This document shows positions 4,491-44,452 of a stretch of DNA of 48,671 nucleotides, piece after piece. The notes below the pieces were generated by a model that made no database searches, was not told the DNA's origin, and saw only the letters and a list, made by a program, of their open reading frames with translations. The DNA is taken from positions 1 to 48,671 of the forward strand of contig JANYDJ010000187.1 of assembly GCA_025363675.1 (NCBI GenBank), given 5' to 3'. Every line of letters begins with the position of its first letter. The stretch's first letter is position 1. The translations under genes and the position numbers were made by a program. The DNA is from Flavobacteriaceae bacterium (GTDB lineage Bacteria > Bacteroidota > Bacteroidia > UKL13-3).

Positions 4491-4568
4491 GAGTAAGGAA
4501 AGGGGTAAGGGGTAAGGGCCATTCGGCGTCAGCTCCTTATCCCTTACTCCTTATCTCTTGCCCCTTTT
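4488..4568. repeat. Heptamer-arm/core palindromic element, copy A
   Basis: ggagtaa|ggaaagg|ggtaagg|ggtaagg|GCCATTCGGCGTCAGCTCC|ttatccc|ttactcc|ttatctc|ttgcccc; arms complementary; lies between convergent stop codons. Confidence 0.85.
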
Positions 4569-7085: not shown

Positions 7086-7206
7086 AGGAGGAATAAGGGA
7101 TAAGGAATAAGGACCATGCGGCGTAAGCTCCTTATTCCTTACTCCTTATCCCTCGAATAAACCATGCGGCGTCAGTTACCGCCAACCGCCTACTACCAAC
7201 CGCCCC
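7086..7206. repeat. Heptamer-arm/core palindromic element, composite copy B (two cores)
   Basis: Core 1 ACCATGCGGCGTAAGCTCC (7113-7131) with TAAGGRA / TTAYTCC arms; core 2 ACCATGCGGCGTCAG (7161-7175) followed by CAACCGC-type heptamers. Confidence 0.8.
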
Positions 7207-7231
7207 TCGCCAATAGAAAACAAATAACCGA

Positions 7232-7741
7232 ATGAAAAAATATCTCACCATTATCATACTTCTCATTTCACAATTTGCTTTTGCTCAAAAAAATGTGCAG
7301 GTTACTGACTCGTTTAAAATAGTTTCGGCAACCGATAGCCTTACTATAAATCTTGATATGATAAAGAAAATAGCGGCTCAAAAATTACCCGATTTACGGC
7401 TTACCAATCACCATGGAGAATTTAAAAAACTTCTCACAAATTTGCAGGGAATACCTATCAAAACTTTTCTTGAAAAAATAAAACCGGTTACCGAAAAACC
7501 AAAAGAACTGAGCGAATACTATTATATATTTCGTGTTGGCGACGACTATATAAATGTATATTCGTGGAACGAGATTTTTAATACCGCAGTAGGCGATTCT
7601 ATATATATAATAACAAGCTACGATGGATTTAACTTAGACACCATGCCCGATAAAATAATGATTGTATCCATGAGCGACAATACCACCGCACGCCGCATGC
7701 TTAAAGGGTTAAGAAGGATTGAAATTTGTAGGGTGAAGTAG
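7232..7741 (+). CDS. Hypothetical secreted protein
   Basis: 169-aa ORF with signal peptide MKKYLTIIILLISQFAFAQ; no family recognised. Confidence 0.7.
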   Translation: MKKYLTIIILLISQFAFAQKNVQVTDSFKIVSATDSLTINLDMIKKIAAQKLPDLRLTNHHGEFKKLLTNLQGIPIKTFLEKIKPVTEKPKELSEYYYIFRVGDDYINVYSWNEIFNTAVGDSIYIITSYDGFNLDTMPDKIMIVSMSDNTTARRMLKGLRRIEICRVK

Positions 7742-7827
7742 TGAGGAGTAAGGAGTAAGGAGTAAGTAGTAAGGAGTAAGGAGCTGACGCCGAATGGTCC
7801 TTACTCCTTATTCCTTGCTCCTATTTT
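7742..7827. repeat. Heptamer-arm/core palindromic element, copy C
   Basis: AAGGAGT repeats | GGAGCTGACGCCGAATGGT | TTACTCC TTATTCC TTGCTCC; fills the gap between two convergent stop codons. Confidence 0.85.
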
Positions 7828-9696
7828 CTAACTACTCCTATAAGCCATTTCATAAATCGATTTCACGTGCGGGCCCAAGAAAATTCTTGCATATATTCTT
7901 ATAATAGCAATACCATCTATAATAGTACTTAGGGTTACACATAGGGCCAATAAAGTTTGGTTTTCGTGTATGTGTGTAAAAATTAAATCCTCTCCTATAA
8001 AAGTTGGTGTTATTGGAAAGCCTGACACGCCTAAGCAGCACAGTAAAAATATAAATGCAATTCGGGGGCGTTTATATGCATAGCCGTGAAATTGGTCCAA
8101 ATCAATTCCCGATTCAATTCGTTTTAATCTATATAAAGCTATATAGCCAATAATGCCAGCAACTATAATACCGCTTAGATAAAACACAGACTCATCGATT
8201 TTATATTTTTCATTGAATGATATAGCGAGTGCAACCCAAAAGTGGTTCAAAATAATTAAGGTCCAGCTTAAGATTGCTTTTTTTCGTTCGGTAAATGCTT
8301 TCACCACCATTATTAAACCAATTACTGAGAAGGTAATGGGCAAATATTGTTCTACATGGTTTGGGATTAAATCTCTATGATAATAACAAAAGAAACTAAC
8401 TAGATATGCTGGAATAAAGAAAATAAATAAACGTTTCACCGTTAAAAAATCTAAGCTTTTTCCTAATTTCTTAAAGGGGTTCCAAAACACCCGATACATA
8501 AACGAATCTAAGTTCCATTCTTTTAAACATAATATATATAAAGTATATTGAATTTTCTTGGGGAACGAACTTTCTATAGATCTTTGTCGGGGTGAAAAAT
8601 TATAAAACTGTTCCCGAATTAAATAACTCACCACCGATGGCGATACCAGCAATTGATAGGTTCTTAGGAATGCATTTCCCGCAAAATGAAACAAAGCCAA
8701 GTTTTCAAAACCTGCAGCAACTTCAATAAATATTAAACCAATTTGTGCGATAGAAGCATAAGCAATCTGACTTTTTACTGATGACTGAACGCGGGCAATT
8801 CCGGTAGTGATGATAGCCGTAAACAATCCCAAAACCCCTATTAAAATACGAATAGATAATTGGTGTTCCCAGAAAGGAAAAGTTCTAAGCAACAGAAACA
8901 CGCCCAAGTGCACCGATAACGATCCATAAAAAATAGCACTGGATGGCGTTGGTCCTTCCATAGCCCTTGGCAACCATGACGAGAAGGGGAGCTGTGCCGA
9001 TTTTGCCAATGCAGTTACCAATATCGTTAATGATATAAATACACCTATCATACTATGGCTCACCAAATGTTCGTGTACCAATTCATAGTTGTTCAATTTC
9101 ATAAAAGTAATATTCTCGTGCCACAAATGGTGACTTGCCCACATCGCTAAAATTAAACCCACATCGCCAATTCTATATATTGAAAAAACTTTTACAGCAT
9201 TTTTTACAGGGAGATATCTTTCACGATAAAACGCAATTAATAAGAAGGAGGATATACCCAATATTTCCCAACCTACAAACAAGGTCTCGAAATTGCCTGA
9301 AATTACCGCAATATTATAACCTATATAAAAGAACAATATGGTATTGAAGAAACGTTTATAGCCAGGCTCTCGGTGCAAATAATAGCGGCTATAAGTAGTA
9401 ACCAAGAAAGTGAGGAAAGCCCCAACCAACAAGTAAGTAGCTGTAATTTTATCGAAATAAAAATCGATATAAAATTCGTAATCGGCTGATTGGTATAATA
9501 CAATATCTTTTAAGTTGAGTGCTTTGTGATTGGTGCATAACCAACAGATAAAAAATATAACCGTACCTACTAAATGTATACCGACGGTAAAAAATGCTGT
9601 TCGCGAAATGAGGGTTTCTTTTTTCTCGGGCAGAAATAAACTTATAATAAATCCCAGTACGGGCAGCAATATAAAAAATGGAAGTATGTGTTGCAT
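7828..9696 (-). CDS. dabB: NuoL/MrpA-like proton-conducting subunit, DabB-type inorganic-carbon transporter subunit
   Basis: NADH-quinone oxidoreductase chain 5-like sequence (TTYSRYYLHREPGYKRFFNTILFFYIGYNIAVISGNFETLFVGWEILGISSFLLIAFYR; LPRAMEGPTPSSAIFYGSLSVH), adjacent to and downstream of a DUF2309/DabA gene. Confidence 0.85.
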   Translation of the reverse strand: MQHILPFFILLPVLGFIISLFLPEKKETLISRTAFFTVGIHLVGTVIFFICWLCTNHKALNLKDIVLYQSADYEFYIDFYFDKITATYLLVGAFLTFLVTTYSRYYLHREPGYKRFFNTILFFYIGYNIAVISGNFETLFVGWEILGISSFLLIAFYRERYLPVKNAVKVFSIYRIGDVGLILAMWASHHLWHENITFMKLNNYELVHEHLVSHSMIGVFISLTILVTALAKSAQLPFSSWLPRAMEGPTPSSAIFYGSLSVHLGVFLLLRTFPFWEHQLSIRILIGVLGLFTAIITTGIARVQSSVKSQIAYASIAQIGLIFIEVAAGFENLALFHFAGNAFLRTYQLLVSPSVVSYLIREQFYNFSPRQRSIESSFPKKIQYTLYILCLKEWNLDSFMYRVFWNPFKKLGKSLDFLTVKRLFIFFIPAYLVSFFCYYHRDLIPNHVEQYLPITFSVIGLIMVVKAFTERKKAILSWTLIILNHFWVALAISFNEKYKIDESVFYLSGIIVAGIIGYIALYRLKRIESGIDLDQFHGYAYKRPRIAFIFLLCCLGVSGFPITPTFIGEDLIFTHIHENQTLLALCVTLSTIIDGIAIIRIYARIFLGPHVKSIYEMAYRSS

Positions 9697-32655: not shown

Positions 32656-33372
32656 ATGGAACCACTAAAATACAAACGTGTACTATTAAAACTAAGCGGC
32701 GAAAGTTTGATGGGCGATAAACAATATGGTATTGATGCAGCAGTGCTCGAGCAATATGCCACCGAGGTAAAAGCCGTGGTTGATATGGGAGTGGAGGTAG
32801 CAATAGTAATAGGAGGCGGTAATATTTTTAGAGGAGTGCAAGGGGTGGCAGGTGGAGTGGTGGACAGGGCACAGGGCGACTATATGGGTATGCTTGCAAC
32901 GGTAATTAATTCGATGGCTTTGCAGGGAGCATTAGAAAAATGTGGAATAAAAACACGCTTGCTCAGTGCTATTAAAATGGAACAAATTTGCGAACCTTTT
33001 ATTCGCCGCCGGGCTATCCGTCATTTAGAAAAAGCAAGGGTGGTGATATTTGGAGCAGGTACCGGAAACCCATATTTTACTACTGACACCGCAGCATCTC
33101 TTAGAGCTGTTGAAATTGAAGCTAACCTGGTTTTGAAAGGTACCCGTGTAGATGGAATATATACAGCCGACCCAGAAAAGGATGCTACCGCAACAAAATA
33201 TGAGGAGCTTACTTTCTCCGAAGTATATAAACAAGGACTCAATGTGATGGACCTAACTGCTATAACACTTTGCCAGGAAAACAAATTGCCCCTTGTAGTT
33301 TTTGATATGAATAAACAAGGAAATTTTAAAAAGCTAATGATGGGAGAAAAAATAGGAACACTGGTGAAGTGA
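32656..33372 (+). CDS. pyrH: UMP kinase
   Basis: [54 protein letters not shown]; followed by frr. Confidence 0.98.
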
Positions 33373-33456
33373 TAGTAATAAGTCATTAGTCGTTAGTCAT
33401 TAGTGGCTGACGCCGAATGGCACTAACGACTAACCACTAATTAACTAACCACTAAA
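33373..33456. repeat. Heptamer-arm/core palindromic element, copy D (AGTCATT-type arms)
   Basis: AGTCATT AGTCGTT AGTCATT AGT | GGCTGACGCCGAATGGC | ACTAACG ACTAACC ACTAATTA ACTAACC ACTAA. Confidence 0.85.
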
Positions 33457-33471
33457 AAAATAATTTTGATT

Positions 33472-34035
33472 ATGAATGAATTAATAAAACCTATGATTGA
33501 CGGCATGGAAAGTGCCATGGAAAAATGTATGAGTCATACCGAGCACGAGTTCTCTAGAATTAGGGCAGGTAAGGCAACACCTAATATGTTGGACAGTGTG
33601 CAGGCAGAAGTATATGGTATGAGAATGCCATTGAACCAAACTGCAACAGTAGGCACATCCGATGCTCGCACACTCGTAATTACACCATTCGATAAAACGT
33701 CTATCGGACCTATCGAACGTGGTATTACAGAAGCCAATTTGGGTTTTAACCCAACAAACGATGGTAATGTTATTCGCATAACGGTGCCTGCACTAACCGA
33801 AGACCGTCGCCGCGATTTGGTGAAGAATGTGAAAGCTGCAGCAGAACATGCCAAGGTTACCATACGCAACGAACGCAAAGATTATAATGAACTTATACGC
33901 AAACTAAAAGCTGATGGTATGAGCGAAGATGATATGAAAGCGGGCGAAGATAAAATTCAGCAAATTACCAATGCAAATGTGGCTAAAATTGATAGCTTAA
34001 TGGCTGCAAAAGAAAAAGAAATAATGACTGTTTAA
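33472..34035 (+). CDS. frr: Ribosome recycling factor
   Basis: EFSRIRAGKATPNMLDSVQAEVYG, DARTLVITPFDKTSI, TEDRRRDLVKNVKAAAEHAKVTIRNERKD. Confidence 0.98.
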   Translation: MNELIKPMIDGMESAMEKCMSHTEHEFSRIRAGKATPNMLDSVQAEVYGMRMPLNQTATVGTSDARTLVITPFDKTSIGPIERGITEANLGFNPTNDGNVIRITVPALTEDRRRDLVKNVKAAAEHAKVTIRNERKDYNELIRKLKADGMSEDDMKAGEDKIQQITNANVAKIDSLMAAKEKEIMTV

Positions 34036-34040
34036 AATAG

Positions 34041-34127
34041 TAATAAGGAGTAAGGGATAAGGAGTAAGTGCCATACGGCGTTAGCTCCTCACCCCTTGCT
34101 CCTCACTCCTTACCCCTAATTCCTATC
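34041..34127. repeat. Heptamer-arm/core palindromic element, copy E
   Basis: TAAGGAG TAAGGGA TAAGGAG TAAGT | GCCATACGGCGTTAGCTCC | TCACCCC TTGCTCC TCACTCC TTACCCC TAATTCC. Confidence 0.85.
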
Positions 34128-43504: not shown

Positions 43505-43567
43505 AGTAGTTAGTAACTAGTAGTTAGTAATCAGTAATCAGTGGTCAGTGGTCAGTGGTTAGTGGGG
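43505..43567. repeat. Heptamer tandem array AGTNNYY without core
   Basis: AGTAGTT AGTAACT AGTAGTT AGTAATC AGTAATC AGTGGTC AGTGGTC AGTGGTT AGTGGGG. Confidence 0.85.
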
Positions 43568-43673: not shown

Positions 43674-43755
43674 AGTCCCTTTAGGGACGGAACATTGGTA
43701 TAGAAAGTACCCAAGCCTCAGACCTTCCCAGTCCCTTTAGGGACGGAACATTGGT
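43674..43755. repeat. Two REP-like palindromes (left pair)
   Basis: AGTCCCTTTAGGGACGGAACATTGGT at 43674-43699 and 43730-43755, identical. Confidence 0.92.
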
Positions 43756-44216
43756 TACACCAACTCCTTAAAAATGTATCGCTCATCATACTCAATTTCA
43801 AACTCATCCAAAAACTCTATATATTCTTCCCTAAAAGATTTCTTGCGATGATGTTCTTCTTGGTTTTTTATATACTCAATTACATTTTTCAAATCAGATT
43901 TACTATATGAAAAAGCACCATATCCAGCTTGCCATTCAAATTTGCCTTTTACTAGTTTGTTGTCATTAATCCATTCAGAAGAACTCCCTTTTATGTCCTG
44001 CATCAAATCGGAGATCGATTGGGAAGGTCGCAATCCAATTAGTAGATGCACATGGTCAGGGACTCCATTTATGATAAGCATTTTGTGCTGATTTGCTTGT
44101 ACAATTCCTGTTATATATCCATATAGTTTGTCCTTCCATGAGGAATGTATTACACCCTCTCTGTATTTAACTACGAATACGATTTGTAGATGTATTTGTG
44201 TGTATGTATTTGGCAT
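43755..44216 (-). CDS. IS200/IS605-type Y1 (HUH) transposase, RAYT-like
   Basis: HUH motif DHVHLLIG; C-terminal catalytic-Tyr helix VIEYIKNQEEHHRKKSFREEYIEFLDEFEIEYDERYIF; flanked by REP-like palindromes. Confidence 0.93.
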   Translation of the reverse strand: MPNTYTQIHLQIVFVVKYREGVIHSSWKDKLYGYITGIVQANQHKMLIINGVPDHVHLLIGLRPSQSISDLMQDIKGSSSEWINDNKLVKGKFEWQAGYGAFSYSKSDLKNVIEYIKNQEEHHRKKSFREEYIEFLDEFEIEYDERYIFKELV

Positions 44217-44220
44217 GTTT

Positions 44221-44304
44221 ACCGATGTTTAGTCCCTATGGGACTTTTGGTTCGAGGGTATTCTTTTTTTGTTACCGATGTTTAGTCCCTATGGGACTTT
44301 TGGT
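44221..44304. repeat. Two REP-like palindromes (right pair, opposite orientation)
   Basis: ACCGATGTTTAGTCCCTATGGGACTTTTGGT at 44221-44251 and 44274-44304, identical. Confidence 0.92.
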
Positions 44305-44452
44305 TTGTTGAATTATTAATGCAAACTTATATGATGAAAAAATATTGCGAATAATAATTTCTCCACTTAATAATCCACAATTATGTACTTTGAAAAAATA
44401 TTTGATTGTGTTGCAGTAGGTGGCACATATATTTGTATATTAATTTAGGAGT

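Follow-up and report, generated by a model that had tools for sequence, protein, structure and literature searches.

Heptanucleotide-repeat hairpins with swappable arms around a fixed core in a Flavobacteriaceae genome

Heptanucleotide repeats of bacterial genomes

Heptanucleotide repeats have been known from bacteria since about 1990 and, to our knowledge, have no accepted cause. The short tandemly repeated repetitive (STRR) heptanucleotides of cyanobacteria are degenerate intergenic arrays that belong to several families per genome; we know of no description of STRRs as core-centred hairpins with concerted arms. The term STRR is used in PMC4748335 and other papers. The P6b stem of the tRNA-Leu (UAA) intron of Nostoc and Calothrix contains heptanucleotide repeats of class I (TDNGATT) or class II (NNTGAGT), which have undergone repeated wholesale class replacement (PMC4476775). 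In Beggiatoaceae, Cyanobacteria, and some members of the Bacteroidetes, TAACTGA forms direct repeats that for the most part lie immediately 5' of start codons, and one set of 170 is inverted (PMC4679880). REP and REPIN palindromes with RAYT, and GTAG- and CGTC-tagged repeats, have also been reported (PMC3733652).

The element described here lies between the genes pyrH and frr in the window, which is the whole analysed stretch of 48,671 nucleotides. The genome of the window (G000) is a fragmented draft with 87% completeness, and it was compared with two species of the same genus, G001, covered for 2.34 Mb or about three quarters, and G002. The nearest precedent of the element is the Nostoc trnL P6b stem. 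Both have a degenerate stem of 7-nt repeats with complementary repeats opposite, two families at the same site, and wholesale replacement; complementary heptamers with exchange of the whole class at one site were found at pyrH–frr and at 15 switched loci. However, the P6b stem is restricted to one intron site and has no dispersed core, whereas the hairpins of this genus occupy many loci, have at least six families, and differ by a species-wide flip of the dominant family. Their sites are intergenic instead of being located in a group I intron, and a search of the window against Rfam at gathering thresholds gave no match. The element works in the manner of the P6b stem without belonging to that feature of a single site.

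The degenerate intergenic arrays and the several families per genome are shared with cyanobacterial STRRs. There are 120 strict period-7 arrays in the 2.34 Mb of G001, compared with 0–4 for each of the remaining periods between 5 and 12, and 245 of 282 arrays found with looser settings are mostly outside ORFs. The TAACTGA repeats are similar in being intergenic heptamer arrays that occur sporadically across phyla, and their unit is close to the AGTRRYC family. By contrast, they are essentially direct and precede start codons, whereas inverted pairs prevail here (41 inverted versus 13 direct in G001) and most positions are 3' of stop codons. Dispersed, short, intergenic, and possibly mobile hairpins are characteristic of REP and REPIN sequences as well; however, the stem sequence of REP is conserved, whereas conservation is limited here to the core, and one stem sequence can take the place of another. 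Because the swappable-arm hairpins resemble P6b in their working, are not members of P6b, and are not REP/RAYT on the tests made, they are rated as a new form of a known, mechanistically unexplained sort of repeat.

The pyrH–frr element and its dispersed copies

It had been proposed in the initial annotation that the pyrH–frr element retains the core of the other copies in the window, carries a completely different heptamer alphabet, and has arms that still pair. The core is not a chance similarity, as there are four matches with up to three mismatches in the window versus 0.04 expected. The 21-nt arms are 90% complementary, and the folding of the strand exceeds that of shuffled sequences (RNA −26.2 kcal/mol, z −5.6; DNA z −5.4), in agreement with the proposed pairing. 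The arms do belong to another heptamer type; however, the complete difference was slightly overstated, since AGTCRTT and AGTAAGG both contain AGT, and the contrast of two alphabets widens to include at least five further arm families in the same genome. The window includes at least four further core-centred copies (near 4525, 7121, 7790, and 34078), all of which have TAAGGRR/YYCCTTA arms. A remnant with a single arm is located near 7169, and an array that lacks the core at 43505–43565.

Table 1 Features of the window discussed in the text, with gene names taken from the initial annotation
Feature	Position	Strand	Remarks
Left arm TAGTAATAAGTCATTAGTCGTTAGTCATTAGT	33373–33404	+	AGTCRTT-family heptamers; outermost unit TAGTAATA
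Core GGCTGACGCCGAATGGC	33405–33421	+	Modules GGCTGACGCC and GCCGAATGGC, GCC common to both
Right arm CACTAACGACTAACCACTAATTAACTAACCACTAA (also given as ACTAACGACTAACCACTAATTAACTAACCACTAA)	33421–~33456	+	Complementary heptamers AACGACT/AACCACT
pyrH (UMP kinase), upstream gene	32656–33372	+	Stop codon TGA 33370–33372
frr (ribosome recycling factor), downstream gene	33472–34035	+	ATG 33472
Second element, just 3' of frr	34037–34126	-	TAAGGRR arms; core AGCTAACGCCGTATGGC 34070–34086 (- strand)
Element with TAAGGRR arms	4497–4567	-	Core 4518–4534; half-switched orthologue in G001
Element with TAAGGRR arms	7736–7837	+	Core 7782–7798
Element with TAAGGRR arms	7088–7154	-	Core variant GCTTACGCCGCATGG 7114–7128
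Degenerate one-armed element	7162–7213	-	Core ACTGACGCCGCATGG; GGCGGTT-type array
AGTRRTC heptamer array	43505–43565	+	Without core and without partner arm
Y1 (RAYT-like) transposase gene	43755–44216	-	PF01797

The core GCTGACGCCGAATGG is present in about 45 copies in G000, almost all of which are intergenic. With up to two mismatches allowed there are 48 matches, a few of which are chance matches at two mismatches that are located in genes and have no arms (L043, L045). There are 17 exact and 17 one-mismatch copies versus none for a reversed control at one mismatch, and all scored copies with at most one mismatch are intergenic. At the same threshold, G001 contains 25 matches and G002 seven. 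A first search of the genome contigs with a combined arm-plus-core pattern gave no match. The other genera of the family contain at most single isolated one-mismatch matches to the core, none with arms, and the presence of the element in these genera was therefore rejected. A viral origin was also rejected, because the sole viral contig matching the core and the start of an arm has no heptamer arms. The copies occupy tandem, convergent, and divergent gaps alike, mostly just after stop codons. Intrinsic terminators would have a T-run after the hairpin and lie at convergent or 3' ends; inspection by eye of the listed copies revealed no consistent T-run, and all gene orientations occur, divergent ones included.

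The arms of the copies in G000 belong to at least six families (TAAGGRR, AGTCRTT, AGTRRYC, GGATTCG, GAAGTTG, GTAGGCA, and GTTGTGG). When typed with hand-made patterns, the left and right arms are of one family in 37 of 38 pairs, compared with a mean of 19.0 and a maximum of 27 after shuffling. The lone discordant pair reflects a typing artefact and is most likely L009, a copy with GTAGGCA arms; a truly mixed copy is L044, with an AGT left arm and a TAAGG right arm. The mean best pairing of the arms is 16.1 of 21 positions, versus 12.8 when the arms are shuffled among the copies and 9.8 at randomly chosen positions in the window. The left and right heptamer families therefore covary across copies, as had been suggested, and the swapping of arms around a fixed core is confirmed as real and general in G000.

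Arm families at orthologous sites of sister species

In the pyrH–frr gap, the AGTCRTT arms of G000 correspond to AGTRRYC arms in G001, where AGTAAAC/AGTAGTC units surround GCTGACGCCGTATGG, and to TAAGGAG arms around a degenerate core in G002. The pyrH orthologues of the two relatives have 93–95% identity. The hairpin has thus been kept in both relatives with another heptamer family on both of its sides. The element after frr has TAAGGRR arms in G000 and AGTAATC-type arms in G001.

The flanks of 30 copies from G000 could be mapped to G001, and 27 of these copies are real elements with arms. A heptamer element is present in 25 of the 27 corresponding gaps, and two gaps have none. Since only 22% of G001 gaps of at least 60 bp contain any heptamer array, the sites are ancestral or else strong hot spots. 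According to a by-eye reading of the gap sequences, both arms have switched at 15 loci (L007, L010, L011, L014, L018, L023, L024, L026–L029, L032, L037, L039, and L042), the family is unchanged at L005, L017, L020, and L022, the elements L006, L008, L012, L019, and L044 are half-switched, one-armed, or nested, and L002 is uncertain. The joint change of the two arms around a fixed core, noticed initially at one site, is therefore evident both among copies and among orthologous loci.

The dominant arm family flips genome-wide between the sister species. Three consecutive TAAGGRR units have 114 matches in G000 versus three in G001. The corresponding AGTRRTC triplet has two matches in G000, 268 in G001, and nine in G002, and none among 65 further genomes from the order. 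The joint change of type in the two arms of a given site, seen between sister species, points to a repeat-making process that lacks an explanation and is linked to a step of seven bases. The genus represents a natural experiment, with about 45 sites, one fixed core, opposite dominant families in sister species, and switches of both arms. The questions of why the unit has seven bases and why the arms agree become answerable by strain-level sequencing.

Explanations of the concerted arm exchange

The concordance of the arms is at the level of the family and not at that of individual bases. In 26 TAAGGRR elements of G000, the pairing of an element's own arms equals that of within-family shuffles (z 0.3, and the same with G-U pairs), and for the 20 AGT elements of G001 it does not exceed that of the shuffles (z −1.5). 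The kth unit of the left arm matches the kth unit of the right arm at a frequency of 0.132 versus 0.143 expected (p 0.69). Neither base-level compensation nor copying from arm to arm is visible, because arms within a family pair no better than shuffled ones. The initial annotation had offered two causes, selection for a hairpin and a mechanism that copies one arm from its partner; the concerted change that both were meant to explain is real, but these comparisons demonstrate neither of them. Compensatory selection acting base by base, or a recent templating event, would make the variable positions agree within an element, which is the opposite of these results. The order of units in right arms is common to different loci more often than in shuffles (p 0.001), and sharing of the left-arm order is not significant (p 0.11). 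In long AGT arrays, the similarity of units is elevated at lag 2 (z 11.1) and reduced at lag 1 (z −8.7) relative to shuffles, and the lag-2 likeness is a growth step of two units, or 14 nt. Of 51 TAAGG arms, 10 have AGT-type remnants directly beyond their outer end, compared with a background of about 3% per 15-mer, and none has them between the arm and the core. Nested arrays of different families also occur. Because remnants of the older family are located only at the outer ends, turnover of the arms from the core outward is suggested; the outer TAGTAA could, however, be a boundary consensus instead of a remnant.

The best explanation, which is put forward tentatively, is that the pyrH–frr element belongs to a dispersed family of intergenic heptanucleotide-repeat hairpins, with core-outward turnover of the arms and subsequent slippage. 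A new inner hairpin, composed of the core and a small number of heptamers from whichever family was common in the genome at the time, would enter at the core of an existing element, either by insertion or by gene conversion from another copy. Each arm would afterwards lengthen and vary alone by repeat slippage, with the two-unit step that long arrays show, and outer units of the older family would disappear. It is proposed that the families of both arms agree because both inner arms arrive together, and that individual units are unmatched because each arm later evolves alone. Rather than being under fine selection, the hairpin is probably tolerated or provides a slight benefit as an insulating 3' structure. 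Inner-hairpin turnover is consistent with the excess of concordance over shuffles, the 15 concerted switches at retained sites, the species-wide flip, the absence of a base-level match between left and right arms, the outer-only remnants, the nested arrays, the shared order of right-arm units, and the contrast of lag 2 and lag 1. It is opposed by the insignificant sharing of left-arm haplotypes between loci and by the half-switched elements L012 (in G001) and L044 (in G000), which an event affecting both arms at once would not produce without later loss; furthermore, no enzyme was identified and no recent event was caught.

A possible, though rather unlikely, alternative is local template switching at the hairpin, or quasipalindrome-type mutation, which would seed a heptamer from one arm to the other before slippage expands the arms separately. 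Template switching of this type is a known mutation mechanism that makes and repairs hairpin stems (PMC8794818). It would account for the concordance without any mobile enzyme, and the lag-2 signal is a slippage signature; however, there is no leftover unit-by-unit match of the arms, even adjoining the core, and the takeover of dozens of loci by one family per species is not explained. Quick later slippage could erase a templating signal.

The near-exclusive period of seven helped the idea of a non-standard repeat-generating system, which had been raised from the pyrH–frr element. In G001, the G-rich strand runs toward the loop in 39 of 39 scored array pairs, with two ties. A scan of GTDB genomes for (ACTGAYT)3ACTG gave at least 120 matches, some in draft bins with possibly wrong taxon labels, and those listed include Cyanobacteria, Anaerolineae, Planctomycetota, Verrucomicrobiota, Bacteroidota, and others. 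Among the listed loci, which were chosen for holding one heptamer array, other perfect arrays have period 7 in 118 cases versus at most 7 at other periods, and 38 adjacent pairs are inverted versus 15 direct. In distant phyla, among the matches listed (L219–L338), the G-rich strand faces the loop in 34 of 37 pairs, and the loops, as far as read, have no kinship to the core GCTGACGCCGAATGG. A general, hitherto undescribed process acting across many bacterial phyla, with polar heptamer hairpins, a 7-nt step, a restricted vocabulary, an inward G-rich strand, and family replacement from the loop outward, would imply enzyme-driven or templated writing of repeats rather than ordinary slippage; such a process is considered unlikely. 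The strict polarity and the lack of base-level arm matching constrain any mechanism, and we know of no earlier report of these features. TAAGGRR hairpins with unrelated loops are present at L084 and L094, in a genus (g58) of another Bacteroidota family of the class.

Selection for a paired stem, in RNA or as a cruciform, would let the arms drift and purge discordant states, so that only complementary families are seen. The strong folding (z about −5.5), the rarity of discordant elements, and the intergenic position right after stop codons, which would fit a role at transcript ends, are in line with it. Nevertheless, such selection is distinctly improbable as the cause, since pairing at variable positions is no better than in within-family shuffles whether G-U pairs are counted or not, any newly complementary heptamer would need to originate twice, and copies are found in all types of gaps alike. 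It is very doubtful that a mobile hairpin was re-inserted independently at preferred gaps in each species, in which case orthologous elements would not be the same element. Core and arms do act as a dispersed family with like ends (TAG...CTA), and there are full-length forms whose ends, GGCTGACGCCTGA and TCTGCCGAATGGC, are separated, but occupancy of gaps common to both species far exceeds the 22% expected, only two gaps are empty in G001, and neither a target-site duplication nor a transposase was found.

Movement of a REP/RAYT-type palindrome by a Y1 transposase is extremely improbable and RAYT-driven mobility was rejected: Y1 transposases occur in G000 and G001, one of them in the window about 200–300 bp from a heptamer array, but G002 carries the element without a Y1 match, the Y1 gene of the window has palindromes of its own, similar to GTCCCTWTRGGGAC, on its flanks instead of the element, other Y1 genes have no heptamer arrays beside them, and no arm sequence is conserved. 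The Y1 gene has paired short palindromes on both sides, GTCCCTTTAGGGAC on one and GTCCCTATGGGAC on the other, and with them forms a REPtron-like unit at 43680–44310 that is separate from the heptamer element. Lost palindrome surveillance was rejected as a cause, because SbcD is present in G000, undetected in G001 and G002, and patchy in relatives without the repeats; lost mismatch surveillance was rejected because MutS is present in 36 of 36 genomes.

Among the G001 loci L099–L218, the module GCTGACGCCTGA also follows non-heptamer repeats, for example ...TTTTTGAAGTT-TGCTGACGCC... and ...GAGCGNAGTCGAAGCA-TGCTGACGCCTGA, the former in copies spaced 78 bp near C6:11973–12129 of G001, which suggests a wider modular grammar of repeats. 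The most over-represented 10-mer of G001, CGCCGCGGCG, has 66 occurrences on both strands versus 0.4 expected, is often embedded in TTCGCCGCGG, and is possibly another palindromic repeat.
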